A stretch of DNA of 28,432 nucleotides from a virus, in IMG/VR virus record IMGVR_UViG_3300045242_000074, positions 1 to 28,432 of that record, one strand, 5' to 3'. Below, piece after piece: positions 48 to 22,698 of this stretch. Below the pieces are notes generated by a model that was not told where the DNA came from, did no database searches, and was given only the letters and a program-made list of their open reading frames with translations. The position numbers and the translations under genes are program-made. Positions within the stretch are counted from its first letter, which is position 1; each line of letters starts with the position of its first letter.

Positions 48-458
48 ATGGCAAGGCAATCCGCAGAGTCGTTGACCCTAGTACCGATAGCGGCACTACC
101 GTCTCGGATTGAACCGCCTAGCGAATTGACGCCATTACAGGCCGATATTTGGCGATCAGTAGCCGCCAGCAAGCCGATAGATTGGTTTGGCTAGGATGTT
201 GCGCCATTGCTGGCTGAATACTGCCGAGCAGTGGCTATGTGCAATATCCTTGCGCTATAGATCGAAGCATCAATAGCTGGCAGTGAGCATGGCGAGATTA
301 AAGCCTTGCTAGATATGCGAGACAAGGAAAGCCGAAGGGTTGCAAGTCTCGCCACAAAGATGAGATTGACGAATCAAAGCCGATACACGCCAGACAAGGC
401 GGCGACGGCTAACAAGAAATCTGGCATTGGATTCAAACCGTGGCAGTCAAAAAATTAA
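48..458 (+). CDS. terS: Terminase small subunit, P27-like (TAG = Gln)
   Basis: Predicted 136-residue DNA-recognition subunit of the packaging motor. Reading needs TAG at codons 49 and 71 to be sense; it then runs from ATG 48 to TAA 456-458. The central helical stretch (LLAEYCRAVAM) and the C-terminal motif RLTNQSRYTPDKA match the pattern of P27-type small terminases, where a short segment ending in xLTPxSR follows a helical domain. It directly precedes and overlaps the large terminase by 19 bases, the usual order. No strong ribosome-binding site is visible before the ATG. In the standard code the product would stop after 48 residues. Family placement is from memory of the motif and is moderately sure; the position as the gene before terL is strong support. 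Confidence 0.82.
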
Positions 459-1957
459 AACTGTCGCCGCGTGCAAAGCGCAATATCGAGTGGATTGAAT
501 AGCATCTTGTTGTGCCAGAGGGACGATTGGTCGGCTAGCCCGTTAAGCTGTCCATAGCGCAGCGAGAATGGATGGAGCAAATTTACGGTATGCCGACGCG
601 CACGTTTATTTGCTCTCTTCCTCGAAAGAATGGAAAAACGGCCTGGTCGGGAATGCTTCTGCTGCTGCATTTGGTTGGGCCTGAAGCAACGCATAACGGC
701 CAGCTATACAGTGCCGCGCAATCTAGAGAGCAAGCATCAATCCTTTTTCAGCTTGCCGCGAAAATGATACGCATGTCTGCCGACCTGTCGCAGTACGTGA
801 TAGTTAAAGACTCCGCGAAGGAATTGGCTTGCGCTGAGTTGGGAACGAAGTACCGGGCATTGTCGGCTGATGCATCCACGGCCTACGGCTTGTCTCCGGT
901 GTTCGTAGTGCATGACGAACTAGGACAGGTTAGGGGGCCGCGCAGTGAGCTATATGAGGCGCTAGAAACGGCATCCGCCGCATAGCAGGCGCCGCTGTCG
1001 ATTGTGATTAGCACGCAGTCGCCAAAGGATTCAGACCTACTAAGCCTGCTAATAGATTCTGCAAAGCGCAGCAATGATCCACGCACTAAATGCGTTTTGT
1101 ATGCGGTGCCATCTGATGCAGACCCGTTTGACAGAGACACGCTTGCCAAGGCGCAACCGAATTGGCATCTGATGAATCATGAAGAAGTTTTCCGCATGTC
1201 CGAAGAGGCGAAGCGGATGCCTAGCAGGGAATCAAGTTTTAGAAATCTAATCGCTAACCAGCGCGTGAACATGACAGACCCCTTTGTTACCCGGTCTGTT
1301 TGGGAAGCGAACGCAGGCGCGGCAGATTTCAGCGCGGTGCAAGATTGCTACATCGGCGTAGACCTTTCGGCGCGCAATGACTTGACGGCGGTTGTCGTGG
1401 TCGGACGTGATGCGGATGGAATCTTTCACGTGCTGCCGTATTTCTTCGCGCCGCAAATTGGTATTGAGGATCGAAGCCAGCGCGACCGCGAAACCTATGA
1501 TGTATGGGCGCGCGAGGGTTTCATTACCACGACGCCAGGGGCGTCGGTGGATTATGCCTATGTCGCACAGCAGTTAGTGGAACTGTGCGACACGCATGAT
1601 GTAAAGGCTATCCCGTTTGACCGCTGGCGCATTGACGTGCTGAAAAGCGAACTGGCGCGGATGAATGTTGAGCTGCCTCTGGTGCCATTTGGTCAGGGCT
1701 TCAAGGATATGACGCCCGCGCTAGATCAGCTTGAGTCGCTTTTGCTAGATGGAAAAATCCGGCACGGCGGCAATCCTGTACTGGATATGTGCGCCGAGAA
1801 TGCAGTAGCTACACGCGATCCCGCAGGCGGGCGCAAGTTGGACAAGTCAAAGGCAACGGGGCGAATCGACGGAATGCAAGCGCTGGCAATGGCAATCGGC
1901 GCAGCGAATACACAGATACCTGTCAAGCCGCCCGAATATCAAATGATGTTTATCTGA
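440..1957 (+). CDS. terL: Terminase large subunit (TAG = Gln)
   Basis: ATPase-nuclease that drives DNA into the prohead and cuts it, 505 residues. Visible motifs in order: segment LVGQPVKL (residues 30-37, Q encoded by TAG), Walker A-like SLPRKNGKT (59-67), Walker B FVVHDE (about 155-160), coupling motif ISTQ (190-193), and the RNase H-like nuclease start YIGVDLSARND with the acidic Asp at about 308. TAGs are at codons 21, 33 and 182. The third one sits in ETASAA-TAG-QAPLS, just before the ISTQ motif. The GTG at 440 is chosen because it overlaps the end of the small subunit and gives a typical N-terminus; no clear Shine-Dalgarno sequence precedes it, so coupling is likely. Terminase_1 (HK97-like) family. 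Stop is TGA. Confidence 0.95.
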
Positions 1958-1965
1958 GAGAGACA

Positions 1966-2571
1966 ATGAACGAAAACCAGCGCGCCTATTCTGTTTTCTA
2001 GGTCAAGTCGATTGACGCGGCCAAGCGCACATTTACAGGCTGGGCCACGACGCCAGCCGTAGACCGAGTGGGCGATACGATTGACCCGCTAGGCGCGGTG
2101 TTCAAAAACCCTCTTGTATTGCTACACCAGCATGATAGCGATGAACCTATCGGACAGGCCAACTTCGGAAAGCCGACTGTAAAGGGAATTCCTTTCACGG
2201 CGACTATTCCGCAGACGGATGCTTTGCCGGATAGCGAACTGAAAGACCGACTGGATACCGCATGGGGTGAAATTGAACTAGGACTCGTGCGCGCAGTCAG
2301 CATCGGGTTCCGTCCGCTGAAATATGCATATAACGAAAACGGCGGTATTGAATACCAGGCAATTGAGGTATTCGAGCTTTCTACAGTTTCAGTTCCGGCG
2401 AATGCTGAAGCGGTCATTACATCCATCAAGTCTGTAGATGGCGCAATCTCGCGAGCGCTCGTAGAGAAGATCAAGGAATACGATCACGCGCCTGCAAAGA
2501 CTTTCAAGCGTGCAATTCCATTAGTGAGCGCACCACGCCCGCCAAAAGGCGCGGTATCGCTCAAGAAATAA
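1966..2571 (+). CDS. HK97-type prohead protease (TAG = Gln)
   Basis: Serine protease of the S78 (HK97 prohead protease) type, 201 residues, expected to trim the scaffold domain of the capsid protein during maturation. The N-terminal half reads FQVKSIDAAKRTFTGWATT, then DRVGDTIDP, the pattern of this family. The candidate catalytic His lies in LLHQHDSDEPIGQ and the Ser in VRAVSIGFRP. The only TAG is codon 12, within YSVF-TAG-VKSID. A purine-rich GAGAGA precedes ATG 1966, and the gene follows terL by 8 bases. In the standard code only 11 residues would be made, so the protease would be absent. Stop is TAA. Confidence 0.92.
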
Positions 2572-2638: not shown

Positions 2639-4072
2639 ATGGCAGGTAAAACGTTTGCCGAGCAAATCGCCGATCTGAAGGCGACGCGCGAGGCCAAGAC
2701 TGAACAAATGAATACCGTTGCTTAGAAGGCAATGGATGAATCGCGTTCGATGGATACCGCTGAGGCGGAAAACTTCGATGCGCTGGAAGGCGAGATTAAG
2801 CAGATCGATGGAGACGTTGCTCGCTTGTCGCGTCTGGAAAAGATCAATGCTGAGAAGGCCACGCCGGTTTCTGGCGCCAAGCCGGAAGATGCAAGCAAGT
2901 CGCGCGAAGGCGTGACGGTCAAGAATACGCAGAAGCTTGAACCGGGTATCGAGTTCACGCGTTATGCGATGTGCCTTGCTGCTGCAAAGGGCGATGTAGG
3001 CCGCGCGTTCAATATCGCAAAGTCGCGCATCCCGGATTGCGAGCGTGTAGTTAATGCGCTCAAGTTCCAGAGCGAGACCGGCCATTCGTTCGAGAGCCTT
3101 ATCAAGTCGAATGTGGCTGGCGGCACGACTGCCGACGCAACGTGGGCTGGCCCGCTTGTCTATTATCAGCAGTTCGCTGGTGACTTCGTGGAATATCTGC
3201 GCCCGCAGACCATCGTCGGCAAGTTCGGCACCGGTAACATTCCGTCGCTGCGCCAGATTCCGTTTAACGTGCGGATTGCCAGCCAGACTTCGGGCGGTGC
3301 GGGTTACTGGGTCGGCCAGGGTGCGCCGAAGCCGCTTACCAAGTTCGATTTCGATGCCACTAATCTGTCGTGGGCGAAGGTTGCGGCGATTTCCGTTATC
3401 ACGGATGAGCTGATTCGTTTCAGCAATCCGTCAGCGGAAGCGCTGGTGCGTCAGGGCTTGGTGGATGCGCTCAAGGCTCGCCTTGACGTGGACTTCATCG
3501 ACCCGGGTAAAGCGGCTGTTGCTGGCGTCTCCCCCGCGTCGATCACGAACGGTATCGCGGCGATCAGTTCCAGCGGCACGGATGAAACTGCCGTGCGTCA
3601 CGATCTGCGCGCTTTGTGGGCGCCGTTCATCGCTGCGAATATCGCGCCAACTTCGGCGGTTTACATCATGTCCGCGACTACGGCGCTTGCCCTGTCGCTG
3701 ATGGTGAATCCGCTGGGCCAGCCGACCTTCCCCGGGATCACGATGAATGGCGGCACGCTGCTTGGCGTTCCGGTTATCGTTTCCGAGTACGCCAAGAATA
3801 CGGGCGGTTCCTCTGGCGGTATCGTGATCCTTGCGAATGCGTCGGATATCTGGCTTGCCGATGATGGCGGGTTCACTCTGGACGCGAGCCGCGAAGCATC
3901 GTTGCAGATGGATGATGCGCCGAACAACAACAGCGCGACCGGCACGGAATCGCAGGTTGTTTCCATGTTCCAGACGAACAGCGTCGCCTTGCGTTGCGAA
4001 CGCTTCATCAATTGGCAGCGTCGCCGCAGCGGTGCGGTTGCCTACCTTGATACGGTGAACTGGGGTAGCTGA
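2639..4072 (+). CDS. Major capsid protein, HK97 fold (TAG = Gln)
   Basis: Main shell protein, 477 residues. Residues 1-100 form a charged, helix-prone delta (scaffold) domain containing EGEIKQIDGDVARLSRLEK. The following part has the HK97-fold signatures GGTTADATWAGPL, GYWVGQGAPKPLTKFDF and VAAISVITDELIRFSNPSAE. The single TAG is codon 29 in NTVA-TAG-KAMDE, inside the delta domain. An alternative internal start exists at 2732 (ATG) just after the TAG, but it would remove the beginning of the delta domain. ATG 2639 has a good AAGGAA site (2625-2630) 8 bases upstream. It follows the protease, as expected for a protease-processed capsid. Stop is TGA, followed by a strong hairpin. Confidence 0.94.
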
Positions 4073-4123: not shown

Positions 4124-4387
4124 ATGAAAGTAAAAATCAAGCTATTGCGACGGTTGCGCGGTGATGATCCGGGAACGTTTTGGCGAGTGTCGCATGGCGA
4201 GGCTTTGGTATTGACGCATCGTGGCTATGCCGAGTATGTGACCGCAGCGGTCAAGCCGCAGGTTGCGGAAGTGCAGCAAGTGCATGCGGATGCAGAGGAA
4301 ACGCAACAATAGGAAGATGTAGAAATATCCGAGCGCACCGGACTCCCCAAGCGGCAATATCGCCGCCGTGATTTGACTGCGGAATAA
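4124..4387 (+). CDS. Small hypothetical protein between capsid and portal (TAG = Gln)
   Basis: 87 residues, not recognised. The N-terminal part MKVKIKLLRRLRGDDPGTFW is basic and is followed by HGEALVLTHRGYAEYVT, which resembles small phage proteins near head genes that contain a short beta domain. The C-terminal part is acidic, then basic (GLPKRQYRRRDLTAE). TAG is codon 63, in a Gln-rich run EETQQ-TAG-EDVE, so an extra Gln there is natural. Start ATG 4124 is preceded by a strong GGAGGT at 4115-4120; an upstream in-frame GTG has no site. Stop is TAA. It may be a head accessory or completion protein by position only. Confidence 0.75.
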
Positions 4388-4391
4388 ACGA

Positions 4392-5807
4392 ATGCGATTT
4401 CTCGGACTGGAAATAACGCGGGCAAAATCCGCACCTGGCTCGCTCTAGTCCGTAGACTCGCGCGGATGGTTGCCGCTAGTTCGCGAACCGTTCGCGGGCG
4501 CGTGGCAACAGAATATGAGCAAGACCGTAGACGGTCAGCTTTCTTTTTCAGCCGTCTATGCTTGCGTTACCTTGATTGCAAATGACTTCGGTTCGCTGCG
4601 TCCGCGACTGGTCGAAAAGCGCGGCAACGTCTGGAAGGAAACGACAAGCGCATCATTTTCGCCGGTTATCCGCAAGCCGAATCGCTATCAGAATCATATC
4701 CAGTTCAAACAATGGTGGGCTACGTCAAAGCTCACGTTCGGAAACACTTACGTGCTGCTAGTGCGAGACAATCGCGGCGTAGTGGTAGAGCAATACATTC
4801 TTGACGCGCGCCGGGTATATCCGCTGGTCGCGCCGGATGGACAGGTTTACTACACGTTGCACACGGATAACCTAAGTGGAGTACAGGGCGAGATTACCGT
4901 TCCTGCGTCTGAGATTATTCATGACCGCATGAATTGCCTGTTTCATCCTCTGGTAGGCATTCCGCCGCTTTATGCTGCTGGTTCGCCAGCGGCGCAGGGC
5001 TTGGCAATCCAGAATCAAAGCCGCAATTTCTTTGTGAACGGCGCGCGGCCTTCGGGCGTGTTGACAGCGCCTGGTGCCATCAGCCAAGAAACCGCAGACC
5101 GACTCAAGAGTCATTGGGAAGAAAAATTTACCGGCGAAAACTCCGGCAAGGTCGCGGTTTTGGGAGATGGCCTGCAATACTCGCCAATGACGATGACGTA
5201 TGTTGACGCTCAATTGATCGAGCAAATGAAGATGACTATTGAGGCTATTTGCACGGCATTCCACGTGCCGCCGTTCAAAATCGGGCATGGTCAAATGCCT
5301 ACGTTCCAAAACGGCGAAACCCTGAATCAAATCTATTATTCCGACTGTCTGCAATCGCTGATTGAAGAATACGAGCTATGCCAGGATGAAGGGCTGGGCA
5401 TCGGTGAAGCGATCACGGTAAACGGTCGCAAAACGCAGCTAGGAATTGACCTTGACTTGCGCGGCTTGCTGCGTATGGACAAGGCAACGCAAGTGCGCAC
5501 GCTTGGCGAAGCGGTCAAGGGTTCGATTATGACGGTGAATGAGGCGCGCGAGGAAATCGACTTAGATAAGGTAAGCGGCGGAGATACCGTTTACATGCAG
5601 CAACAAAACTTTGGCCTGGATGCGCTGGCGAAGCGCGATTCATTGCCCAACCCATTCGTGATTGACCGTCCTACGGCGAACCCAGACCCATCCGTTAGCG
5701 GGCCTGCAGTGAATGCCGATCCGACGCAAGCAGTTGATCAGGTCGCAGCCGCAAAAGCCTTCGCCTATGACGCGCAAAAAGCATTTGAACAGGAGTTAAT
5801 CGCGTGA
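4392..5807 (+). CDS. Portal protein, HK97 family (TAG = Gln)
   Basis: Dodecameric ring at the capsid vertex through which DNA passes, 471 residues. Family features include SAVYACVTLIANDFGSLRPRL near the N-terminus, FFVNGARPSGVL around residue 215, FKIGHGQMPTFQNGETLNQI about residues 295-315 and EEIDLDKVSGGDT near residue 385. The single TAG is codon 19, giving PGSL-TAG-SVDSRGW. Codon 27, a TTG at 4470, lies after the TAG and is a weak alternative start. ATG 4392 is 5 bases after the preceding stop. The gene sits after the capsid gene, whereas HK97-like phages usually place portal between terminase and protease. Stop TGA overlaps the next ATG. Confidence 0.94.
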
Positions 5808-6676
5808 TGTTCGATCCGATTGAATGGGGCAAGGGCATTGCGCGAACGATGAAGGCGCATATTGCAGACAAACTATAGCCGATTGAGAGCCGCATCAAGG
5901 CGCTGGAAGATTATCCCGCGCCGGATATGGATGCGCTGAAACTGCACATTGATACGGCGGTGCTTGCCACGGTAATGGATTGTTTCAAGAAGTGCGAAGC
6001 ATCATTGCGCGGCGCGGATGGCAAGGATGCCGAGCCTATCAATCTGCATGGCCTGATTGCCGAGCTTGCGATTGCGCCCGAGATCAAAACGATTATTGAC
6101 TTGCTGGTGACGGAAGGCATTGCGGAGCACGTCAAGGCTAACCCGGTCAAGGATGGCAAGGACGGTGCGCGCGGCGAAAAGGGCGAGCGCGGCGCGGATG
6201 GTGTAGGGCTTGCTGGTGCGCTGATTGATCGTGATGGATCGCTTGTGGTAACGCTCACGAATGGCGAGACTAAATCGCTTGGCCTAGTCATTGGCAAGGA
6301 TGGCGCAGCGGGTCGCGATGGTAAAGACGGTGCGGATGGCTTGAGCGTGGAGGGGCGTGCGCTTTCCTATGATGCCGAGACTGGCGAAATCATCGAACGA
6401 TGGAACGCAGCGGGTACGGCTAAAGAGTTCCGCTATCCGGCAGTCGGCATACACCAGCGCGGCTACTGGCGCGAAGGCATGGCTTGCAAATCAGGCGATG
6501 CGGTCACGCATGGCGGATCGTTCTATATCGCAAAACGAGATAACGCCAGCAAGCCTTGCGCGGAAAATGGCGATGATTGGTATCTGTGCGTCCGCAAGGG
6601 TCGCGACGGCGAACGCGGGCCTGCCGGTTCCGCATATGTCGCACCGGCTCCCGTAAAGTTGGAGTCTGCAAAATGA
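5807..6676 (+). CDS. Collagen-like, carbohydrate-binding-like virion protein (TAG = Gln)
   Basis: 289 residues. It starts with an amphipathic N-terminal helix, then a charged helical part, then collagen-type Gly-X-Y runs: GKDGARGEKGERGADGVG (about residues 115-132), GKDGAAGRDGKDGADG (about 165-180) and GRDGERGPAG near the C-terminus. Between the last two is a module containing GYWREGMACKSGDAVTHGG and FYIAKRDNASKPC, resembling the short aromatic-rich carbohydrate-binding domains of phage surface proteins. The likely role is a trimeric head fibre or decoration protein. TAG is codon 24 (ADKL-TAG-PIESRI). The start ATG overlaps the portal TGA (ATGA), so translation is coupled. Role is inferred from domain type and position. 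Confidence 0.85.
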
Positions 6677-7029
6677 CTTTGCTGGTATCGCTGGCATAGG
6701 CTAAGGCGCATCTTCGGCTTGACACGACCGATGAAGATACGCATGTATCGTTGCTTATTTCTGCTGCGAGCGCGGCAGTATTGGGCTATGTCAAGAATGG
6801 GCCTGATTTATTCCTTGACTCCGCTGGCGATCCGATCCTTGATAGCCATGGCGATCCCATTGGCATCCCGGACGATATGCGCTTTGCGACCTTGCTGCTA
6901 ATTGGCGAGTTCTACAAAAACCGTGAAGCCAAGCAGGACGGTGAAATTGACCCGGCACACGGTTACGGATACCTGCCGCGCGTAGTGACGGCATTGTTAT
7001 ACCGCTATCGCACGCCGAGTCTTAGCTGA
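6673..7029 (+). CDS. Head-tail connector, gp6-like (TAG = Gln)
   Basis: 118 residues, the adaptor that docks on the portal (HK97 gp6 / phage_connect family). The opening MTLLVSLA-TAG-AKAHLRLDTTDEDT matches the family N-terminus, where L-x-x-AKxHLR follows a polar residue, so TAG at codon 9 as Gln fits well. The body has SLLISAASAAVLGYV and ATLLLIGEFYKNREA, helices typical of the family. The ATG overlaps the preceding TGA (ATGA). In the standard code only 8 residues would be made. Stop is TGA. Confidence 0.9.
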
Positions 7030-7033
7030 TGTG

Positions 7034-7393
7034 ATGGCTATGGACGCAGGCAAATTACGGCATCGCGTGGCGCTGCAATATCAGGCGCAATCGCAGGATG
7101 CAGATACGGGCGAGATTACCGTTAGCTGGCAAACGCTCGCGACGGTATGGGCTGCAATCGAGCCGCTTTCAACGCGCGAGTTTATCCAGTCTCAGGCGGT
7201 GCAATCCGAAGTGACTACGCGCATCACGATCCGCAAGCGCAACGATGTAACTGCGGCATGTCGTGCGGTGCATATGGTGAATGGCGTGGCGGGAAAGGTG
7301 TACAACATCCTTGGCGCGCTTGCCGATCCTGTCAGCGGCTTGGAATATCAAACCCTGCCATGCTCGGAAGGCGTCAATCAGGGCGGCGCGTGA
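7034..7393 (+). CDS. Head-tail adaptor / head closure protein
   Basis: 119 residues of the phage head-tail adaptor family (SPP1 gp16-like). Features: opening AGKLRHRVALQYQ, then WQTLATVWAAIEPLSTREF, TRITIRKRNDVTAACRAVH and the terminal NILGALADPVSGLEYQTLPC. This is one of the few late genes without any TAG. Three in-frame starts are possible (GTG 7031, ATG 7034, ATG 7040). None has a clear Shine-Dalgarno site; 7034 is chosen and 7040 is equally possible. It follows the connector by 4 bases and precedes the glycan cassette. Stop TGA touches the next ATG. Confidence 0.88.
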   Translation: MAMDAGKLRHRVALQYQAQSQDADTGEITVSWQTLATVWAAIEPLSTREFIQSQAVQSEVTTRITIRKRNDVTAACRAVHMVNGVAGKVYNILGALADPVSGLEYQTLPCSEGVNQGGA

Positions 7394-7924
7394 ATGCTGT
7401 TCGCGGTTTTGTGTACAGGGCCAAGCATGACACAGGCGCAGGCGGACGCTTGCAAGAGACGGTGCGGAGTTGTCGCGGTATCGGACGCATGGGCGCTTGC
7501 ACCGTGGGCTGATGCGATGGTATCGCATGATGCAGCATGGTGGCGGGCGCATCCTGAAGTGGATTTCACCGGGCAAAGGTTTACGGCGCATCCTGAAGGA
7601 TTGCACGAGTTCGGCGCAAAAGAGTTCAAGCATCCGGCTGGCAATAGCGGCACGCTCGGGATAGAGGTAGCGATGCACCTAGGCGCAACGCGCGTGCTGC
7701 TACTCGGGTGCGACTTGAAGGGGACGCATTACTTTGGGCCGCATGGCGCAGGATTAAAAAACACGACACTGGAAAGGTTCAAGGTGTTTCATCTGCAGTA
7801 TGCAGCGCGGCGACACTTGCCGGTTATCAATTGCTCGCCTGATTCCGAATTGGATTGTTTCCCGCGCGGGAATTTGATGGATGAATTGAATGCCCACGGC
7901 ATGGCTCGCGATAAGGCCGCTTGA
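7394..7924 (+). CDS. MptE/DUF115-like phage protein
   Basis: 176 residues, no TAG. The core GNSGTLGIEVAMHLGATRVL, then LLGCDLKGTHYFGPHGAG, is the pattern of a phage family related to DUF115/MptE-like folds: GNSG loop, helix, then a strand ending in GxD, and a His/Gly-rich segment. In cellular relatives this fold occurs in pterin pyrophosphokinase-like and flagellin glycosylation proteins. A nucleotide or sugar-nucleotide binding role is plausible but not shown. It begins directly after the adaptor stop (TGAATG) and its end overlaps the next gene by 35 bases. It opens the glycan cassette. Confidence 0.75.
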   Translation: MLFAVLCTGPSMTQAQADACKRRCGVVAVSDAWALAPWADAMVSHDAAWWRAHPEVDFTGQRFTAHPEGLHEFGAKEFKHPAGNSGTLGIEVAMHLGATRVLLLGCDLKGTHYFGPHGAGLKNTTLERFKVFHLQYAARRHLPVINCSPDSELDCFPRGNLMDELNAHGMARDKAA

Positions 7925-8606
7925 GAAACGCACGCAGGCATTCAAGGCAGGATTGACGCGGCACGGTTTCACAGTAAGAGAAAGTCTTACGATGAATCCG
8001 GCAAGCGGCGACATACTGATAATCTGGAATCGCTACGGGTAGGCAGACCAAGCGGCGACGGTATTTGAAAAGCGCGGGCTGCCTGTTTTGGTCGCAGAAA
8101 ATGCGACATGGGGCAACGACGCAATAGGCGGGCCGTGGTTGTCATTATGGCTAGGGCTGCACAATCGGCGCGATTCAATCCGCGCGGGCAGCTAGGGCCG
8201 ATGGGATAGCCTAGGATTCGATCTAGCGCCATCATGGCGGTCGGATGGCGGGGAAACGATAGGATTACCGCAGCGAGGAATAGGGCCGCAGGGCATAGGG
8301 ATGCCGCTGGGATGGAAACCGCCAGGTTGCGACCGTATACGACAGCATCCTGGAATGCGGGAATGCGTGCCGCTTGAGATTGACCTGGCGAACGCATCCA
8401 AGGTTGTGACATGGGGCAGCGGCGCGGCGGTCAAGGCGCTTATATGGGGCATCCGGGTAGAGTCGCATATGTCTAAATGGGCTGGCGAGCAGGACAATAC
8501 AGATGCGGGCAGGATGGCTATGTTCCGCAGGCTTGCGTGGGCCTAGTGGCGACTGACTGAAATTGAAAGCGGGGAAGCGTTCGCGTGGCTGTTATCCGCC
8601 GCGTAA
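7890..8606 (+). CDS. Capsular-polysaccharide-type phage protein (TAG = Gln)
   Basis: 238 residues with TAG at codons 51, 102 and 219. It resembles a phage family with the landmarks ILIIWNRYG, PVLVAENATWG, LPQRGIGPQGIGMPLGW, RECVPLEIDLANAS, VVTWGSGAAVKALIWGI and a terminal AWA-TAG-WRLTEIESGEAF. In relatives I recall, the residue between AWA/AWC and W is often Gln, which supports the code. The VVTWGSGAAVKA segment looks like the nucleotide-sugar side of GT-B type polysaccharide enzymes. Enzymatic role uncertain. Start ATG 7890 is inside the end of the previous gene in another frame. Stop is TAA. Confidence 0.8.
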
Positions 8607-8646
8607 AGCGGCATAAAAAGGGCTTAGTCCAAAAGGGTAAAATGCG

Positions 8647-8775
8647 ATGAATGAGCAGCAGATTGAAAATGAAATTAATGCCAAGGGCTTGAATGCGCCA
8701 CGACTTACTCCGGCGCTGATTGATGCACAAATCGTGGATGAGGCTTATCACGCGCTGCGCAGTAAGCTAATGTAA
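8647..8775 (+). CDS. Short Gp49/gp66-like phage protein
   Basis: 42 residues, no TAG. The segment INAKGLNAPRLTPALIDAQI matches the N-terminal signature of the Phage_gp49_66 family (xAKGLxAPRxTPxxIxAxI), of unknown function. It is shorter than most members as I recall them, so it may be a trimmed copy. A GGGTAAAATGCG stretch precedes ATG 8647. Its TAA overlaps the following ATG by one base. Confidence 0.7.
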   Translation: MNEQQIENEINAKGLNAPRLTPALIDAQIVDEAYHALRSKLM

Positions 8776-9620
8776 TGGCTATTGTCCTGATTACCGGGAA
8801 GGGCGGGAAGTCAGGAAGCTGGAAGATACGCGGCGAGTAGCTCGGCGTTGCGATAGGCGCAGACGTATTACCCGAAGCTGAAACACTGGATTGCAAATCT
8901 GCGCGTGTAGTGGTTTGCGTCAAGAGAATTTCGGAAAGGCTGGTACGCACGGTTCACGCCAGCGGAAGGCCGCTAGTTTGGGATGTGGTAGACGCCTATC
9001 CGCAACCGAATAACTGGACGCGCGAGCAGTGCATGGATTGGCTGCATGGCGAGTTGCGCAGAATCCAGCCGGATGCGGTTGTTTGGCCTACGCGCCGGAT
9101 GATGCGAGATGCCGGATTTGCGGGGCCGTAGATCGTGCTACCGCATCACGCATGGACGAAGTACGGCAGAACGCAAACACGCGATAAGGTGCGCGTAGTC
9201 GGATACGAAGGTGGCGAAAGCTATCTCGGCAAGTGGCGCGAGATTGTGCAACGCGAATGCGATAAACGCGGCTGGCAGTTCCAGATTAACGGCGACATGC
9301 GCGATGCGGATATTGGTGTGGCGCTGCGGGACGGCAACGGGTATGCGCAAAGACATTGGAAGCCGGGCACGAAACTTGCCAATCTTCAGGCGCTGGGTAT
9401 CCCGGCGCTATGCTCTCAAGAGTGCGGCTACCATGAAATAGCAAGCGGCTCGGAAGTCTGGATAGAAGAGGCGCTGGACGTTGGGATTGCATTTGCTGCG
9501 GTCGAATCGGCCTGCACACGCTAGGTGATTTCAGAGATTCAAAGCAGGCAGGTATTGACGCTTGAGTCAGTCGCGGACAAATATAAAGAATGGCTCTCCA
9601 GTTTGGCGCTGAATTACTGA
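8775..9620 (+). CDS. Glycosyltransferase-like phage protein (TAG = Gln)
   Basis: 281 residues with TAG at codons 22, 119 and 250. The opening VLITGKGGKSGSWKIRGE-TAG-LG follows the family pattern SGSWxIRGxQLG, supporting Gln. Then come VVVCVKRISERL, PLVWDVVDAYPQPNNW, VVWPTRRMMRDAGF, a central VLPHHAWTKYGR, and near the end a donor-site-like stretch with RHWKPGTKLANLQALGIPAL. The two-domain order and KLANLQALGIPAL resemble GT-B (family 4-like) glycosyltransferases. Substrate unknown. It overlaps the gene before by one base and the gene after by 31 bases. Stop is TGA. Confidence 0.82.
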
Positions 9621-11542: not shown

Positions 11543-11907
11543 TGTATCCGCCCGTCTTTGCTACCGCAGTTGCGGCGTCGCCTGTAACGGCATTGCTCGG
11601 CACGAATCCGACGCGCCTATATCTGTTCGGTGAAGCTCCGCAGAACGTCACGAAACCGTATGCAGTCTGGCAGACGGTCGCAGGCTCGCCCGAAAACTAT
11701 CTAGGCACGTCGCCAAATATAGATCATTGGGTTGTATAGGTGGACGTATACGCAGATACCGCATCCAGCGCACGCGCGGTTGCACAGGCATTGCATGATG
11801 CTTTTGAGCCTAAGGCATATGTGACTAGCTGGCGCGGCGAGTCACGCAGCACGGATACACTTTTATATCGCTACGGTTTCGACGTGGAGTGGTGGAAGCC
11901 GCGATAA
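11542..11907 (+). CDS. Tail completion protein, DUF3168 family (TAG = Gln)
   Basis: 121 residues. The pattern PPVFATAVAASPVTALLG, YAVWQTVAGSPENYL and HWVV-TAG-VDVYADTASSARAVAQAL followed by LHDAFEP fits DUF3168. TAG at codon 66 sits exactly where the family strand reads V-Q-V/I-D-V-Y, one of the best pieces of evidence for Gln. Role: joins head connector to tail tube. The gene returns to virion functions after the glycan cassette. ATG overlaps the previous TGA; stop is TAA, followed by two hairpins. Confidence 0.92.
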
Positions 11908-13031: not shown

Positions 13032-13361
13032 ATGGAACTGATCCAGAAAACGCTTAAGTACAAGGGCAAAGAGGAAACGGTTTACTTCAAGGAATTGACC
13101 GCAGGCCAGCGCTTCCTCTTGCTGAAAGGCCAGCGTATCTAGACGCATCCTGGCGATGAAAAGGCCACGATGGAAATTGATCTTGGCGAAAGCCTTGAGC
13201 GCAATCATCGTCTGGTGCAAATGACGCTTGTGACGGAAGCGGGCGCAGCGGTGTATCGCACGCTTGCCGATCTGCATGCGGACTCGGCGGCGAAGGTTTC
13301 CGCACTGGTCAAGCTTGCCAGTGACGTACACAAGGATGACGACACCGAGGGAAACGCCTAA
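13032..13361 (+). CDS. Tail assembly chaperone, G-like (TAG = Gln)
   Basis: 109 residues, chaperone that coats the tape measure before tube assembly. ELIQKTLKYKGKEETVYF is followed by ELTAGQRFLLLKGQRI-TAG, then HRLVQMTLVTEAGAAVY, with an acidic C-terminal tail. The position between tail tube and tape measure is diagnostic. TAG is codon 37. Normal termination is TAA 13359-13361, four codons after a GGGAAAC slippery site, which diverts a fraction of ribosomes into the next frame. A gap of 101 bases precedes the gene and holds no clear feature. Confidence 0.88.
13349..13355 (+). promoter_or_regulatory. Programmed -1 frameshift site GGGAAAC
   Basis: GAG GGA AAC in the G frame forms the heptamer G GGA AAC (X XXY YYZ). 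A -1 slip continues into CGC CTA AGC and the frame then stays open to TAA 13685-13687. This matches the gpG/gpGT arrangement of lambda-like phages in position, direction and sequence type. It is only two codons before the zero-frame stop. Confidence 0.9.
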
Positions 13362-13687
13362 GCGGTGATCCGCAGCTAAGGTTCCTGTGTAAGCTCGCGT
13401 TTACGTTCCGCGCACCATTGCATGAAGTCATGCAGTGGCCTGCGCGGGACGTGGCCTTACTCGCTGAGTATATGTCCAAGGAACCTGCGCCGGATGACCG
13501 CTTGGAATTTGCATTAGCAGCGATTCAAGCGATGTACGTAAATTCGCATCGCAAACAAGATGCGCCCGCGCATAATGTGAAAGATTTCATGCTGTTCCTC
13601 GATCCTTGGGGCGAGCAAAAAGCCGAAGAAGAATCCAAGATTTCCGACCTTGCCGGAGAGTTCGGCATTTTCAATCAGGTACGATAA
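13355..13687 (+). CDS. Tail assembly chaperone T-like extension, made by -1 frameshift
   Basis: The 110-residue extension is fused to the first 108 residues of the G-like protein to give a product of about 218 residues. No good independent start exists: the frame is open from the slip site, and conserved-looking protein sequence (LCKLAFTFRAPLHEVMQW, then ALLAEYMSKEPAPDDRLEFA) begins well before the first in-frame TTG. DPWGEQKAEEE is like the minor tail T proteins that contact the tape measure. It contains no TAG and ends 4 bases before the tape measure ATG. Confidence 0.88.
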   Translation, partial: RLSGDPQLRFLCKLAFTFRAPLHEVMQWPARDVALLAEYMSKEPAPDDRLEFALAAIQAMYVNSHRKQDAPAHNVKDFMLFLDPWGEQKAEEESKISDLAGEFGIFNQVR

Positions 13688-13691: not shown

Positions 13692-16600
13692 ATGGCAACG
13701 ATTGTATTTGATCTAAAGGCCGTCACTGGCGCTTTCGTTACAGACTTTCAACGCGCTGCAAAGGAGGCGCAGAAGTCATTGGGCGAAATTAAGGATGCCG
13801 CACGCGAGACGGGCGCGGGCATCCTTGAGTCATTTACAGGACTGAGTACATCGCAGCTAACAGTTGCGGCGCTCTCGGCGGGCTTTGGCGAACTGATTAA
13901 AAAGTCAATCGAGCTTGGCGATCAAGTTAACAAGATGTCGCAGAAAATTGGCGTTAGCGTAGAAACGCTATCTGCCCTGCGTGCGTAGGCGCAGCTATCT
14001 GATGTGAGCTTCGATGATCTTGGCTCCGCAATGGGTAAGTTTGCCAAGACCCAGGCGGCAGCTGCAGGCGGCGCTAAATAGCAATCGGAAGCATTCGCCG
14101 CGATGGGCGTTGCGCTCAAGGATGCGGAAGGACATTTGCGCAGTCAAAATGACGTGCTCGGCGACGTTGCTAAAAAGTTTGCGTCCTACAAAGACTCGAC
14201 GGAAAAAACGGCGCTTGCATAGGTGCTGTTCGGAAAGTCTGGCAAGGAACTAATCCCACTGCTAAATGAGCTTGGCGAAAAGGGATTTGAAGAAGTCACG
14301 AAACAGGCCAAGGCATACAATCTTGTTATCGGCGCAGACCAAGCAAGGGCGTCCTAGGAGTTCCACGAAAACATCACGCGGCTAAGTCAGGCCACTACGG
14401 GCTTTGGTCTGGCCGTCACGAAATAGCTGCTACCCAGCCTTGTGAATCTATCCTCGCAAATGGCGGAAGCCGCTAAGACTTCAGATGGTTACGCGGATAG
14501 CGCAAGTGGTGCTGTGTCTGTTATTAAATCATTCGTTCTTGGCTTGATCGCAGCCAAGGAAACAATCGCGGGACTGGTAAACGTTATCGCCGCAGTATTT
14601 GATGCGGTCAAAACGACGTTTGATGCATCCGGTCAATTTATTGCGGCATGGTCGCAGATGGTTGCCAAAAATATATAGGCTGCCTTCCGTTTTGATTATT
14701 CTGCAATATCCGCGAATAAGGACGCCTTCATAAAACAGGCCGGAGAAATTGCTGGCACGTTTACGCACAACATGGATGTCGCGCGCGGCGCTATGAGTTC
14801 CGGCGTTACTGACTCTGTTGGCAATGTCAAAAAAGCATACGATGCGCTTTTCGGCACGTTCTCCAATGTGATTTCAGGAGTTAAGACTGTATCCAAAGCG
14901 CACGAGGAAGGCGTAGCGCCGCTGCTCAAGAATGCGGATGCAGCGAAGGAGGCGACGAAAGCAGCCGAAAAGCTTGCGGAAATGTTCAATAAGGACGGCG
15001 AGACGCTAGCTTCCATTCAGTCCAAACTAAATCCCGTACAAAAAATATATAGCGAATACGTCAAGGGCATCGCGGAGGCGAATACCGCTTATCAAAAAGA
15101 AATAGAGCTTGCAAAAAAAGCAGGCTTGGGCGATGCTGCATTGGGCCAAGCTAAAGAAAACTTGATTGCAAAAAATAAGGCGCTGCTGGATGTTGAAAAG
15201 GCTCAGTAGGCGGAATTTATAAAGCAGAATGATGTAGTTGGAAAATATCTTGAGAAAATCGCAGACGATCAGGCGCTAATTGGGCTTACTGACCGACAAA
15301 AAGAAATTACCAAGGCAGTTCAGGACTTAACTCGCGAATGGGAAAAGGATACGCCTGCTGTCAAGGCGTGGCTGGCTTAGATGGGCGTTATTGATCCAAC
15401 GTCCGAAGCTGGCAAGCTCAAGATTTAGGAAGTAACTGGCGCGCTGTATGACAATAAGCAAGCCTTCGATCTTTCGCAGCAGGCTGCGCGCGAATGGCAA
15501 GGCATCTGGTCGCAATCCTTCGATAAGATACTAAACACCAGCGGCAATATCTGGACGAAGCTAAAATCCGGATTCAAAGACCTTGTAAATTCGATCATCC
15601 AGTATTTCGAGAAGCTCGCGATTGTCAATCCGATCCTAAACGCCATGTTTGGCGGTTCGGTCGGATTCTCTATATTGCCAACGCTTGCCAATGCTGCGGG
15701 CGGGACTGCGCTAAATCAGACTGGTGCAGCAATTGCGCAATCCTATATTGACCCGAGTAGCGGCAATGTCATTGGCGGCGCTGCGGGCGGCGCTGGCGGC
15801 ATTGGTGGCCTAACGTCACCGTCAACTTGGGTGGGGCTTGGGAAAAACCTTTTCAGCGGGTTTAGTTCGCTATGGAGCGGCACGTCAGGCGGTATTGCAT
15901 CATTCGGCAGCATTCCAGGCGGCGGGTCATATGCGTTGACAGCCCCTGGCGCAGCCAGTCCGTTCGGGTATGGTGGCTACGGCTCAGGGTTCGGGTAGGC
16001 GCTCGGCGTCGCTGGCGGCATTTATGCTGGCTATAACGAGTATAAGAACGCTGGCGGCGGTCTGGCGGGCGCAGCTGGTGGGCTAGCCTATGGAGCCGGT
16101 ACATACTTCGCGGGCGCTGGCATCGCTACTGCGGCTGCAACAGGCAGCATTGCTGCTGGACTCTCTGCAATCCCCGTTGTGGGCTGGATCGCAATTGCAG
16201 CCATGCTCATTGACAAGTTCAGCGGCGGCAAGCTATTTGGCACAGCATTCAAGCCGACCGGCAACGTTGCCGAGAATGTGAGCATCGGCGCGAATGGCGC
16301 TTCGGTCACAAACTCTATTGAAGAAAAGAAAAATCAGGCTTTGTTCGCAGGCCACAAATGGCGATGGGAAGATCTCGCCGCCACGCCGGAACAGATGCAG
16401 TTCGCGGATTCCGTAACCAAGGCCATGAATCAGGTGGCGCAGTCTGCGGCTACCGCGCTTGGGCATGATGTGGGCGATCTTGTCTCTGGCGCGTTCAAAC
16501 AGGTTACGGATAAATCCGGCAAGGTCACATCGCAAATTTCTACGGTACTCGGCAAGCAATACACCGAGGCCATAGACGATTTCGTCAAGCGCATGCAGGC

Positions 16601-18509
16601 GGAAAACGTCATTGCGCAAATTGGCGGTGAAGCGGACAAGGTGGCGGACGCCTATCGCGCGACCGCACAAGGATTGTCCGACGCAGCGCAGTTCCTGCTC
16701 GCCGCTGCGGTAGATATCAAGCACGGTCAATCGTTGCTCGGCGATGATAAATCGCTGATAAGCATCAATGCGCTTGTGAACCAGCTTGCGCAGTCTGGCG
16801 AGTCGCTGGTGCAAACCTATCAGCGATTGCAGACTGAGACGAAGGCGCTGCATGACTCGCTCGACATGATGGGCGTCACCTTGTCGCATACCGGCGCGGA
16901 GTTTGTGAAGTTCGCGGACGCGGCAGCGACGGCAGCGGGTGGCGTGCAAAACCTGCAAGCACTGCTCGCGAGCTACGGGAAGAATTACTTCTCTGCAGAC
17001 GAGCAAGGGCAGCAGCAGATTGCCTACTTCAAGAAACTGGCAGGCGATGCGCTTACCGGCATCGGTGAAGCCGCAGACACCAGCATGGCGCAGTTTCGTG
17101 AGGACTTCACGAAGGTCATGCCGACGCTCACGCCGGAGCAACTCGTCTCTTGGCTCAAGGCGGCGGACTATCTCGCGCAGGCCACTGCAGCGCAGAATCA
17201 GTATAACGCCGCACTCGCACAGGCCAATGCTGCACAACTGAACGGAGTCCAAAACTACGCAAATATTGTCACGTCGATTCAGGACGGCATAAACCAGTTA
17301 CAGCATCCCGCCAGTGATTTCCAAAAGGGATTGATGGCAATCGGGCAGGCGCTTGTTTCGACGGAAGCGCAATTGAATGCGGCGGCGCGCGCGGCAGGAC
17401 TGGCAGCGGCACGCGAGGAAGATTTGGCGCTCGCGCGTAAGTACGCGGAACTGCAATCGCAGGTGCTAGCCAAGCAATTGATGGCGGATAGCGCGCCGCT
17501 GGTATCCAGTCTATTCGGCAATGGCTCGGTGGATCAGGCCGCGACCTCGGCGAGTAGCAGCCTGTACAACGTCGCCAGCGGATTGCAGGCGGTCGCGGAT
17601 GCGGCTACTACCTTCCGTAATTCCATGTTGCTCAATTCTCAGTTGTCGCCGCTGAATGTGCAGCAGCAATATCAGGAAGCGCTCAAGCAGCTTTCGGCAG
17701 ATGGTAGCTCGCAGACCGCACAAACCGCGCTAACTCTCGCGCGGCAACTGATGGCATCGGGCGACGACTACGCCAAGGCGTTCGACCTCATCACCAGCAT
17801 GGTACGCAACAACGGCAGCACGGCAACGGCTGGCGGCGGCGGTCACGGTAGTAGCAGCAGCGCTACATCGGCGGGGCAGACAGAATCACAGCGACTTGCC
17901 GACGCGCAAAAACTCGCGCAGAACGTTGCAGACCTCGCCGGGTTCGGCGGCAAATCTTTCGCGGACATTGCCAAGCAACTCGGTTTTGGACTCGATCAGC
18001 TTGGCAGCATCCTCGGCTTGCAAGGCGACGACCTTACGAAATACCTCACGTCGCTTGAGGCCAAGAGTTACAACCTCACCGACATGGCGGCGATGCTTGA
18101 CAAAACTGTCACGCAGCCGATTGTCGATGCGCTTTATAAGGCGCTTGGCCTGTACAAAAACATCAATACGCATATTGGCATTCCGGGCACCATTGGCAGT
18201 ATCGCAGCAAATGATAGCGACGGCGCGAATTTCAGCGGTACGCCGATCCTGTCGCGTCGCCCAATCCTGCCGACCCCTGTAAACCCTGGCGGAGTGTCGC
18301 CGCCATCGCCGGAGCCTGTGACCCCTGGCGATATAGACCGCCTAGGCGACCGCATCATTAACGGCTTGACCAATGTGGCGAAGGTAACGGCCAGCGGCGC
18401 GGTTGCGGTTGAGGATGCGACAAACAGCGTGGGCAACAAGATCGTGAACCTCGCGCGCGCACCTAACGTGCCGGTAAGCGACCGCGTTATGCGGAGCCTT
18501 GTCGCCTGA
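13692..18509 (+). CDS. Tape measure protein (10 TAG = Gln in the first half only)
   Basis: 1605 residues, the protein that sets tail length; at about 1.5 angstrom per residue this suggests a long flexible tail. TAGs are at codons 99, 130, 177, 222, 245, 329, 506, 563, 579 and 769, all in the same frame. Helical, Ala/Lys-rich early part; membrane-like segments near VIKSFVLGLIAAKETIAGLV and GLSAIPVVGWIAIAAMLI; a Gly-rich stretch about residues 690-770; then long Gln/Ala-rich helices. Codons 770-1605 hold roughly 65 Gln codons, all CAA or CAG. ATG 13692 follows the chaperone stop; TGA overlaps the next ATG. Confidence 0.92.
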
Positions 18510-20092
18510 TGCAGCGCTTCTCATTGATAGCAAATCATCCGCTGTATACCGGCGATATCGTCATCATCAATCGCCCTGCGCAGGCGTTCGTCGGGGCAAG
18601 CTATTCGTTCGCGTTCGCAGCGGTCGGCGGCAGCGGTTCGCTGTCGTGGGAATGCCGCAGCACGTTGCCGAGTGGGTGGACGTTCAGCGGTTCGACGCTG
18701 ACCTATTCTGGCACATTGTCGAGCACGGCGGCGTTTAGCGTGGACATCTACGTCCGCGACGCGAATTTCGATCACGAGATTTTGCAGACGTTCGCGATTG
18801 AAGTTATCGCGCTGCCGCTGACACTCTCGGGCGATTTGCAGGATCAAACTAATGGCGTCACGATCACGCCTTACAGCTACGTGGCAAGTGGCGGATATCC
18901 AGGCTACACCTACGCGATCACCTCGGGCGCGTTGCCGACCGGTCTTTCGCTCAACGGGGCAACGGGGCAAGTGACCGGTACGCCCACGACGAACGGCGCC
19001 TATTCGTGGGCTGTCACCGTAACCGACTCGCACAGCAACCCCGCCACCATACCGGACTCGTGCAACGTCGCTGCGCCAGCGCTGACGCTGACAGGGACGG
19101 CAACATCGCCGGTTACGATTGATGATGCCTATTCGTGGACGCCGGCGACAACGGGCGGCGTTGGGCCTTACACGTACTCTGTCGGAAGCGGAACATTGCC
19201 AGCGGGCACGACGCTAAACACGTCAACCGGCGAAGTTCACGGCACCGTCACCACGGTCGCCTCATTTACTTTCGTGATTCATGTCGTGGATTCGGCGAGC
19301 AGTTCGGCTAACTCGCCATCAGAAACTGTCGTCGTGAATGCCAACGCCACGGCGCTGTCGATCTATAACAAGATCGCGACCAGTGCGGGCGGACATGGCG
19401 CCTATTGGAATCTTGACGAGGCGACCACGGCCATTAGCAGCAGTCGTGCGGATAACGCAAACGGTGCATTCCCTCTTGGGATCGCAGCGGCCGCGATGGC
19501 GATCGTCAACGGGCCTCGTGGTGCGGGCGACAATGCTACAGGCGTCGGCTCTGGCGGTTACCTCACTGCTTCTCGCACAGTTGGCGATGATCTGGACGTA
19601 CCCGCGTCGGCGCAAAAATATTGCTTATTCGGATTCATTAAGTTCAACAGTGCGCCCGGCAGCTTGCTGAGCATAGGTGGGACTTATCAAGGCGGCTCTC
19701 CGCCAAATGGCGGATACATGCTCATATCAGGGCCGACCAATGCGGCGTATGGCTATAGCGGAGATACAGTCACCACTACTTGGGCGCACGCAAATACGAC
19801 TATACCGGACACAACGAACTGGCATTTCTACACCATGTGGCGAGATAACACGGACGGCAAATTGCGCATTTCTGTGGATGGTGCAACCGCCGCCGTTTCT
19901 GCCACAACGTGCGTTCCTCCGCAATCGAATATCGCGTTCCTTATTCTTGGGGGATTGGGTTCTCCTGATGCGTCGGTTTCGAGATGGGGTTACATCAAGG
20001 GCGATTACCTGACTTCGAGCGAACAGACTTGGATGGTGAACAGCGGCAGCGGGCGTAACTGGCTTGAAATCAAACGACTGGCGGGCCACTGA
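18509..20092 (+). CDS. Tail protein with Ig-like (He_PIG) repeats and a LamG-like domain
   Basis: 527 residues, no TAG. After an N-terminal segment it has three Ig-like repeats. The clearest is SGALPTGLSLNGATGQVTG with TPTTNGAYSWAVTVTDS, repeated as SGTLPAGTTLNTSTGEVHG; these are He_PIG type modules that often decorate phage tails. The C-terminal 230 residues, starting near GGHGAYWNLDEATT and including YCLFGFIKFNSAPGSLLSIGG and LRISVDGATAAVS, look like a concanavalin/LamG jelly roll for sugar binding. Likely a distal tail or adhesin component. It overlaps both neighbours by ATGA-type junctions. Confidence 0.85.
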   Translation: MQRFSLIANHPLYTGDIVIINRPAQAFVGASYSFAFAAVGGSGSLSWECRSTLPSGWTFSGSTLTYSGTLSSTAAFSVDIYVRDANFDHEILQTFAIEVIALPLTLSGDLQDQTNGVTITPYSYVASGGYPGYTYAITSGALPTGLSLNGATGQVTGTPTTNGAYSWAVTVTDSHSNPATIPDSCNVAAPALTLTGTATSPVTIDDAYSWTPATTGGVGPYTYSVGSGTLPAGTTLNTSTGEVHGTVTTVASFTFVIHVVDSASSSANSPSETVVVNANATALSIYNKIATSAGGHGAYWNLDEATTAISSSRADNANGAFPLGIAAAAMAIVNGPRGAGDNATGVGSGGYLTASRTVGDDLDVPASAQKYCLFGFIKFNSAPGSLLSIGGTYQGGSPPNGGYMLISGPTNAAYGYSGDTVTTTWAHANTTIPDTTNWHFYTMWRDNTDGKLRISVDGATAAVSATTCVPPQSNIAFLILGGLGSPDASVSRWGYIKGDYLTSSEQTWMVNSGSGRNWLEIKRLAGH

Positions 20093-22698
20093 TGGCTAAG
20101 CAATACTCCTCACTCGACAATGCAGCACTAGGCCCGAGCCTCGAAACCGGGCTTGGCGGGCTGACGCTCACGACCACGGCCGACTCGCTCAACCTCAACC
20201 GCAATGCACGCTCGCGCATCGGGATTGCGGCGACGGCGCCGGACATCTATTTTGAAGGCGTGTTCTACGGCTCGGCTGCGCTCACGATGAGTAACGCGGC
20301 AGTCGGCATCGTGCAGTCTGGCGTTGCGACAAACGTGTGGCCGGGGAACGTCGCCAACTCCATCGGCTACCGCCCTGCAGATGGCGCGGTATATGTGAAC
20401 GGTTCTAGCGTTGCGACGGTTGCGCCAACGCTGGCAAAGGGCGTCATTGGATTTGCGCTGTCGCAGTCCGCGCATACGCTGAAAATCTACGTAAACAACC
20501 TGCTCGTCTACACCGTCACCGGCTTGGCCTCGGCGGTTTGGTTCCCCGCAATCAGCGTCGGCAGCACCGTCGCGCGCGACTTGACCGGATATCTAAACCT
20601 GGGCCTGCGCCCGTCCGAGAATGCGCCGCCAACCGGCTACCGCTTCGGCGTGTGGAGCATCGTTGCCACGACGCCGATTGATCCGCTGGCATCGGACTTC
20701 TTCCTATCGTCGCCGACTTCGCCAGTTCCCAATGCCAGCTACAAGGGCCGCGTGATGCTGCCCGAGAATCTCTCAATCGAACAATCGGCATCGTTCTGGA
20801 CGGATGGATCGCACGGTAGCAGCTCGCAAAACACCATCGGCCTTGACCTCGAAAACGCCGATGGTGCGCTCGACAATTATCCCGACATCATCACCGGCAC
20901 GCCGTTCCCGATTGCGATTGCCGACCTGAATTCTACCGCCGAGCCGACGCTTATCGCAACGCTCGTTGCCAAGGCCGCGAAGCCGACCAAGTTTGATGTG
21001 ATGCACGTCGATTTAGCCGACGCCGCGCGCAAGTGGGACGTGCCATTGCCGCGCCGCTTGGTGCCGCCGTGGATGGACGCGGGCGCAGCAAATCAGCCTT
21101 TCCCGATTGCGCTCGGCGCGGTGCGCGAAGCCGAGCCGCTATTGATCGACGGCATCAATCGCGTGCGCGTGGTGCATGACGATCAACTGACCAACATTGC
21201 CATCCTGCGCGACAAGGGCGACCCGCTCGACCCGACCGCAACGCCGCCCGACTACACGGCGACCGGCGACCTGCGCGGCGTCATCACGAATACCGACCCG
21301 GCTGGCACTGTTACGGGCGATTTTTCCTCGCAAGGCACAAGCTCGCTCACGCCGACGACCGGCACCGACTTGCTAGCAGGCATAGGGGCTATGTCTACTG
21401 CCAATAGCAATGGATTGCCAGCAGGTTGGGAATAGACACCCGCAATTGGCGGGTATGGCACGCCGTCGCAGGTGGCAACAGATGGCGGGCGCGCTCGTAT
21501 CACATTCGATACGTTCACAGGCGGGCCGCAGACGCAGGCAAGCTATATCAGCACGGCCATTGGTGCGGCAACGATCCTTTCCGGCAAGCGCTACCGCATC
21601 AAGTTCGATGTAAAAGCGGCGGACGTTTCGGCGGAAGGCATTAATGCGGCCTTCGGCTTGATCGTCAACGACACGACCGGGCCGCGCGTGGATTCCGTGC
21701 TCGGGCATTCAGTATTGGTAGGCTCGCTCTCCGATCCCGCGTTCGGAGCCGGTTCGTTTACCGTCGATTTCGTCGCGCCGTTCGATGTGCGGTATCTATG
21801 CGTGGGCGCGAGCCTTTCGATCCTGTCTGGCGATCCAACCCCAGGCTCGTCGTGGGTCGAATTCGACAACGTAACCGTCGTTAAACTTCCCGATCCGCCC
21901 GTTTCCGGTGCGCCGTTGCAGGGAATTTCGCTCACAAACTTTTTCAAGGAAATTATCCTGCGCAGCGAACGCGCGGGCCTGACTGATGCAGACGTGGACT
22001 ACACCAGCACCGATGCAATCGACACCTCCGCGCCGTATCCGTTCGGCGTATATGTGCAGTCCGCGATCACGATTGATGGCCTATCGCGTGCGCCGCTGGA
22101 TTCGTTCTGCGCGTCGATCACCGAAGATGAAACCGGCGCGCGTCGTGTCATCCGCTTGACCGATCCAGAGCTCGCCGCCGATGGCGATATCGTTGCGGAG
22201 TTTGACGGCTCGAACCTTGACGATATGCCGACTTGGGATCGCGACCCGGCCATCGGCCTGACAGCGCGCGCAGGCGCGCCGCACAACTGGTATCAGTTCA
22301 CCGACGGCACGCAGTTCGTTGACGACTTCGACCCGGCGACCGGCATCGATGCGCAGACCCGCGCGCAATTCATGCGGGCGAGTCAAAACTTTGTTTCAAC
22401 CGATGTCGTGCTCGATCCGAGTTATCAGTTCGCGCTCGACGCCGACCCGATCCCGTACCTGCTCGACTTGCTGGCCGATGCCAAGGCCGAGCTAAACCGC
22501 GTGTGCGGCATGTTCACGAAGGTTCGTAAGCACTACACGTTTAGCGGGGCGCTGGACGATCAATCCATTCCGCGCGTCGGCGACATCGTGCGCGTGACTT
22601 GGCCGCGCGGCGATCTGGCGGCGGGCAAGAAACTATTCGTAAAGCGCGTGCGCTACTTTCCGTGGTCGCGCCGCGCCGACATAACCGCTTGGGGATGA
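20092..22698 (+). CDS. Large tail-tip (baseplate hub-like) protein with one TAG at codon 448
   Basis: 868 residues if TAG at 21433 is read as Gln; 447 residues if it stops. The N-terminal 190 residues look like a SPRY-type beta sandwich (SIGYRPADGAVYVNG, VIGFALSQSAHTLKIYVNN). Next is a tail-hub part (PENLSIEQSASFWTDG, GLDLENADGALDNYPD, KWDVPLPRRLVP), then a jelly-roll-like middle (YRIKFDVKAADVS, WVEFDNVTVVKLPD), and a C-terminal hub part (LLADAKAELNRVCGMF, IPRVGDIVRVTWPRG). The C-terminal half has no plausible start of its own, and both halves are in frame, so read-through is preferred. Stop is TGA. Confidence 0.85.

Follow-up and report, generated by a model that had tools for sequence, protein, structure and literature searches.

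Late genes of a small HK97-like phage probably read TAG as glutamine and its early genes keep the standard code

A probable two-code phage

The DNA analysed here, referred to as the window, is the complete IMG/VR record IMGVR_UViG_3300045242_000074, a viral sequence of 28,432 bases classed as linear. Its late genes occupy the + strand (48-23545) and its early genes the - strand (23840-28260). From sequence evidence, we conclude with a probability of about 0.93 that the window comes from a temperate-type, HK97-like tailed phage which would use two codes in each infection. Early genes would be read in the standard code, and TAG in late genes would be decoded as glutamine (Gln) by a phage-encoded tRNA with anticodon CUA, likely as a gate on late gene expression.

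The 24 late genes of the + strand (7694 codons) contain 39 in-frame TAG codons, distributed over 18 genes, and not a single in-frame TAA or TGA. Their terminal stops are TGA in 14 cases, TAA in 10 and never TAG. A first-pass annotation made from the sequence alone had given the same number of TAGs and of split genes, and had stated that all late genes end in TAA or TGA; our recount matched it exactly, for 24 of 24 genes as regards the terminal stops. The first and last TAGs (192 and 21433) also bound the region as it had described, but the codons are unevenly spread within it, 38 of the 39 lying before position 16,000. The other two frames of the same genes hold 128 TAG, 154 TAA and 350 TGA. 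By our own arithmetic, the chance that 39 random stops would all be TAG is about (128/632)^39, or 1e-27. Because off-frame stops are mostly TGA, neither chance nor decay can produce the TAG-only pattern. With standard gene calling, 18 of the 24 late genes in such a phage come out broken.

The late proteins match HK97-type families (terminase, protease, capsid, portal, connectors, tail terminator, major tail protein, tape measure) and the GC content along the window is 51-62%, so that the earlier description of a GC-rich HK97-type phage holds. The genes are as follows.

48..458, + strand: terminase small subunit; TAG at 192, 258; phrog_12559, E 1e-22
440..1957, + strand: terminase large subunit, HK97 type; TAG at 500, 536, 983; phrog_9, E 1e-116; 56% to PAJU2
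1882..2571, + strand: head maturation protease, true start uncertain; TAG at 1999; phrog_617/80
2639..4072, + strand: major capsid protein; TAG at 2723; phrog_617, E 7e-106; recoded clade monophyletic
4124..4387, + strand: small late gene without assigned function; TAG at 4310; 45% conserved in relatives
4392..5807, + strand: portal protein; TAG at 4446; phrog_2271, E 1e-127
5804..6676, + strand: collagen-like late gene, after the portal gene; TAG at 5876; phrog_1289
6673..7029, + strand: head-tail adaptor Ad1 (connector); TAG at 6697; phrog_40
7031..7393, + strand: head closure Hc1; no TAG in the window, one in relatives; phrog_25
7394..7924, + strand: sialyltransferase-like protein; no TAG in the window, 1-3 in relatives; phrog_4603
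7890..8606, + strand: glycan-cassette gene; TAG at 8040, 8193, 8544; homologues in relatives, no family match
8775..9620, + strand: glycan-cassette gene; TAG at 8838, 9129, 9522; homologues in relatives, no family match
9590..10348, + strand: glycan-cassette gene; TAG at 9671, 9926, 10112; homologues in relatives, no family match
10338..10853, + strand: methyltransferase; TAG at 10449, 10746; phrog_6636
10850..11542, + strand: glycosyltransferase-like gene; TAG at 10937, 11327; phrog_28018, E 4e-47; weak PF01501 match, under its cut-off
11542..11907, + strand: tail terminator/completion protein; TAG at 11737, Gln in 7 of 7 homologues; phrog_78
11987..12451, + strand: major tail protein; TAG at 12011, 12164; phrog_158
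12448..12930, + strand: tail completion/neck protein; no TAG; phrog_5
13032..13361, + strand: probable tail assembly gene, by position; TAG at 13140; 81-83% conserved in relatives
13418..13687, + strand: tail protein; no TAG in the window; phrog_337
13692..18509, + strand: tape measure protein; ten TAGs at 13986-15996, none in the last 776 codons; phrog_13338, phrog_8462
18509..20092, + strand: tail-end protein with Ig-like domains; no TAG; PF05345
20092..22698, + strand: tail protein; TAG at 21433; phrog_8917
22703..23545, + strand: last late gene; no TAG; no family match
24936..25304, - strand: single-strand DNA-binding protein (SSB), early gene ending DDIPF-TAG, a true stop; phrog_44 and sequence
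25378..26795, - strand: exonuclease and Erf annealing protein, early, standard code, no in-frame TAG; phrog_149, phrog_155
26948..27931, - strand: DNA methyltransferase (Dcm-like), early, standard code; phrog_29583

TAG probably stands for glutamine

The residue encoded by TAG was identified in a blind profile test. TAG was masked as X, the late proteins were aligned to 29 standard-code loci, and all 20 residues were scored for each codon by column profiles. Over 37 TAG sites, Gln scored 28.9 nats, as compared to -3.6 for glutamate (Glu) and -14.5 for lysine (Lys); the homologues are not mutually independent, hence the nats overstate certainty, though the ranking of the residues is clear. In the control, 61 of 61 sense codons were decoded correctly, and CAG and CAA displayed the same Gln/Glu mix. 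By profile, homologue alignments thus give Gln and no other residue at TAG, which is the identity first proposed.

At single sites, the first-pass annotation had placed TAG on family glutamines in five positions. This was borne out in the terminase (536; seven Gln, four Lys), in the tail completion protein (11737; Gln in seven of seven) and in the glycan genes (8838, Gln in six of six; 8544, six Gln and one Met). It did not hold for the connector (6697), where the homologues read E, E, E, I, Q and R. Comparison with recoded relatives led to the same residue. TAGs of two of them fall on Gln codons of the window at 43 of 92 sites when window TAGs are masked (44 of 94 in an earlier, unmasked run). 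Across the recoded clade, 32 of 88 TAG sites carry TAG throughout, and 36 of the 56 that vary show Gln.

Early genes keep TAG as a stop

The SSB of the window ends in DDIPF followed by TAG. The DDIPF motif of SSB must be C-terminal, and TAG is therefore a true stop in this early gene. The split between early and late genes could be counted in a 56-kb relative, whose early genes comprise integrase, repressor, SSB, RecT, Dcm, replication, helicase, methyltransferase and NinB genes. These contain no internal TAG against 129 CAG/CAA, as compared to 70 against 290 in the late genes (endolysin and structural; p 3e-9); one TAG counted among the early genes lies upstream of the probable RecT start. 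The late genes of this relative show 70 TAG, 0 TAA and 0 TGA. Its repressor, like the SSB of the window, ends in TAG.

Recoded relatives carry a tRNA with anticodon CUA

A tRNA with anticodon CUA was detected by ARAGORN in the recoded relatives L002, L004, L007 and L030, which supports the amber reassignment to Gln that had been proposed from the window alone. The gene is part of a cluster of tRNA genes between the endolysin and terminase genes, about 2 kb upstream of the gene for the small terminase subunit. With this location, late transcription would deliver the tRNA and the recoded messages together, a co-expression that we infer from gene order.

The acceptor ends of these tRNAs have G73, G2-C71 and an open 1-72 pair (C.C or U.U mismatch). 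The L030 form most resembles tRNA-Gln(CUG) from the two sampled gammaproteobacteria, with the same acceptor stem except for base 72. Determinants of glutaminyl-tRNA synthetase (GlnRS) are the 1-72 and 3-70 pairs, 10-25, U35 and the discriminator, and the amidotransferase route relies on U1-A72 (PMC9976931). Since neither CUA tRNA form has U1-A72, direct charging by GlnRS appears more likely than the amidotransferase route, and the enzyme would most likely be that of the host.

A pattern search of viral contigs for the suppressor tRNA returned only contigs that were already known. Beside the tRNA of the relatives, only tRNA and transfer-messenger RNA (tmRNA) families of Rfam were found, with no theta ribozyme at the gathering threshold. 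No release factor or synthetase was present among the families found in the 56-kb relative.

Three further features of these regions were observed. The tRNA set of L002 (6729-7818), upstream of the late structural genes, comprises Gly, Thr, Pro, Leu-UAG, Ser and CUA. The CUA tRNA of L030 is unlike that of its relatives and lies, with an adjoining tRNA-Gln(UUG), where the relatives have theirs. Finally, L002 (457-888) and L004 (574-1005) carry a permuted two-piece tmRNA with tag ANDDSYMPMAQAA (Rfam RF04321, 112.5 bits), which may help ribosome rescue during the code switch; a methylophage with a two-piece tmRNA is the subject of PMC9004378.

The recoded phages form one clade

Relatives were gathered by terminase, capsid and glycan-gene searches. 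About a dozen contigs from several metagenomes share the trait (L002/L033, L003, L004, L005, L007/L032, L030, L031, L034, L037, L049, L051 and L052); the searches also returned many standard-code contigs. In the recoded contigs, late genes have no internal TAA or TGA apart from a single TAA counted, which, as judged from an extended protease start, is the stop of the overlapping upstream terminase gene.

In the capsid tree, the recoded phages form one clade (100/98). They also form one clade in the trees of the portal and of the glycosyltransferase-like gene. In the TerL tree, built like the portal tree with FastTree, L030 stands outside the other recoded phages because it carries a different terminase, in which TAG is not seen. 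This terminase is a module swap; it groups with Microbulbifer and Sphingomonad sequences (L030:1-13390).

Bacterial genomes yielded 39 capsid loci, almost all of them from Proteobacteria. None is recoded; all use the standard code, with 3 TAG, 2 TAA and 6 TGA in 64,759 codons. Without a recoded locus in this set, no host can be named. A terminase search of bacterial genomes did not find relatives.

A timing gate or neutral drift

The evidence suggests the following sequence of events. Early, lysogeny and replication genes would be read in the standard code of the host, with TAG as a stop. Later, TAGs of endolysin and virion genes would be read as Gln by the CUA tRNA, TAA and TGA remaining stops. 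Before the tRNA builds up, late proteins would end as short fragments, which would likely serve to prevent early lysis or assembly.

That such a gate was selected is suggested by the position of TAG within genes, as compared to other Gln codons of the same genes. Mean relative positions are 0.32 in the window, 0.36 in the 56-kb relative and 0.34 in a 32-kb relative, against 0.46-0.51 expected (P <= 0.002). No significant start bias was found for CAA versus CAG or in five other synonymous contrasts. In the terL, portal, connector and major tail protein genes, the sequence on either side of start-proximal TAGs aligns with homologues, which rules out wrong start codons as the source of these TAGs. 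Start-proximal TAGs look older or better kept, and the clustering of shared TAGs near starts fits a gate against premature late gene expression.

Several observations weigh against the two-code explanation or its gate. The start bias is carried by 12 TAGs common to the relatives, the 26 unshared TAGs of the window giving a weak trend (P 0.12). As the signal sits in shared TAGs, the three genomes are not independent and provide one observation, not three. TAG is absent from four late genes that precede 16170 and nearly absent from those of the tail end, so any gate would be leaky gene by gene. The window contig has no CUA tRNA gene, because it begins 48 bases before the small terminase gene and the upstream side is missing. 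Lastly, for the tRNA form of L002 and L007, overall similarity does not clearly single out tRNA-Gln as the closest.

Some of these points agree with a neutral origin, in which TAG does encode Gln but the presence of a suppressor tRNA simply allowed CAG to drift to TAG in the genes expressed along with it, with no gating. TAG and Gln codons swap freely among relatives, and the count of TAG-bearing genes is not above chance (17 against 15 expected, P 0.17; 20 against 19, P 0.41). The unshared window TAGs are likewise not significantly start-biased. However, drift does not account for a start bias that is seen in the shared TAGs and not in the codon controls, nor for early genes without internal TAG. 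We consider neutral drift a serious contender, at somewhat worse than even odds. We would be more hesitant still about extending the gate to a second lock on the lysis decision, which is rather unlikely on present evidence. There, selected start-proximal TAGs would truncate late proteins in lysogeny. Once the late operon and the tRNA are on, readthrough would complete the virion and lysis proteins, and would also lengthen the TAG-ended repressor and SSB, pushing the switch one way.

If the host read UAG as Gln of its own accord, or suppressed amber codons naturally, and the phage simply followed, this would agree with the lack of a tRNA gene in the window. Such a host is very improbable, given that the SSB and the repressor of the relative end in TAG while late genes never do, that relatives carry their own CUA tRNA, and that the code is standard in related loci of sequenced Proteobacteria. 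Another residue (pyrrolysine, Glu, Lys, Tyr or Trp) is less credible still. ARAGORN labels the CUA tRNA 'Pyl' on its anticodon, and Glu ranks second at TAG sites; yet Glu lies 32 nats behind Gln, CAG and CAA show the same Gln/Glu mix, and the tRNAs have ordinary cloverleaf shapes with Gln-type ends. The profile test rules such residues out. Finally, a decayed prophage or a sequencing or assembly error, which stops inside essential genes resemble at first sight, is ruled out by the TAG-only counts, without TAA, TGA or frameshift in the late genes of the window, and by relatives from other samples, the comparison that settled the question of assembly error left by the first-pass annotation, as they carry the same pattern with many TAG sites in common. 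The terminase of a related contig (L019:2520-4007), with 2 TAG, 3 TAA and 1 TGA in frame, has by contrast the look of real decay, or of an inserted segment.

The tail end is poor in TAG

From 16170 to 23546 (+ strand), the window contains one TAG for 101 CAG/CAA, as compared to 38 for 196 upstream (Fisher p = 9e-6). In the 56-kb relative, the tail genes are rich in TAG, with 19 in the tape measure gene and 9 in a big tail gene. The simplest reading is that the tail end of the window likely results from a recent exchange with a standard-code phage. No donor was found: 20092-22698 had no match in viral contigs or phages, and the end of the tape measure gave a single match, at 31%.

Relation to known phages

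By the features tested, the phage of the window is a code-15 two-code phage in a new lineage. As far as our searches reach, the novelty lies in the lineage, the small genome with an integrase, the kinship with a cultured Pseudomonas phage and the bias in TAG position. Code-15 crAss-like phages from the human gut read TAG as Gln in late structural genes, as confirmed by peptides (Peters et al. 2022, PMC9523058), and reassignment to Gln is catalogued in PMC11210395. The likeness extends to early genes in the standard code and to a phage suppressor tRNA. In contrast, the phage described here is small and HK97-type, with a GC content of about 0.55, an integrase-bearing relative and standard-code relatives in Proteobacteria. 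It does not belong to the Crassvirales, its late proteins matching HK97-type families and PAJU2.

For the recoded phages of Borges et al. 2022 (Nat Microbiol 7:918), a timing of late lytic genes by suppressor tRNA was proposed, according to the passages citing that work in PMC13059738 and PMC9523058. The same timing role is proposed here; those phages are cited as having large genomes of 100-600 kb (PMC13059738), whereas the longest contig of the present clade reaches only 56 kb. Amber reassignment outside the gut was predicted with Mgcod in viruses of cold-seep sediments (PMC10504277). There, recoded genes serve mostly replication, recombination and repair, whereas in the present clade they are structural and lysis genes.

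The nearest isolate is Pseudomonas phage PAJU2 (Detrevirus, NC_011373), with 56% identity in TerL and 53% in the major capsid protein. From the terminase genes to that of the tail terminator, the late genes of both phages follow the same order, with sialyltransferase and methyltransferase genes among them, and both phages have exonuclease/Erf early genes on the minus strand. PAJU2 differs in using the standard code, with no internal stops in the shared genes, and in having no tRNA genes. Protein identities of only 53-56% in TerL and the major capsid protein place the window outside Detrevirus, in a lineage of its own that is related to this genus.

Gut metagenomes have been the main source of recoded phages, whose genomes are often large and whose hosts are often difficult to culture. 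The phages of the present clade are small, one of their standard-code relatives is cultured in Pseudomonas aeruginosa, and others lie around them in the trees, which opens the question of timing device or drift to experiment.

Two neighbouring regions complete the description. The sialyltransferase-like, glycan and methyltransferase cassette (7394-11542) is embedded in the structural operon, after the head closure gene and before that of the tail terminator, and PAJU2 carries a shorter counterpart in this position. Where the late genes meet the early ones, a gene for a pentapeptide-repeat protein (23840-24790, - strand) is made of strongly repetitive units.

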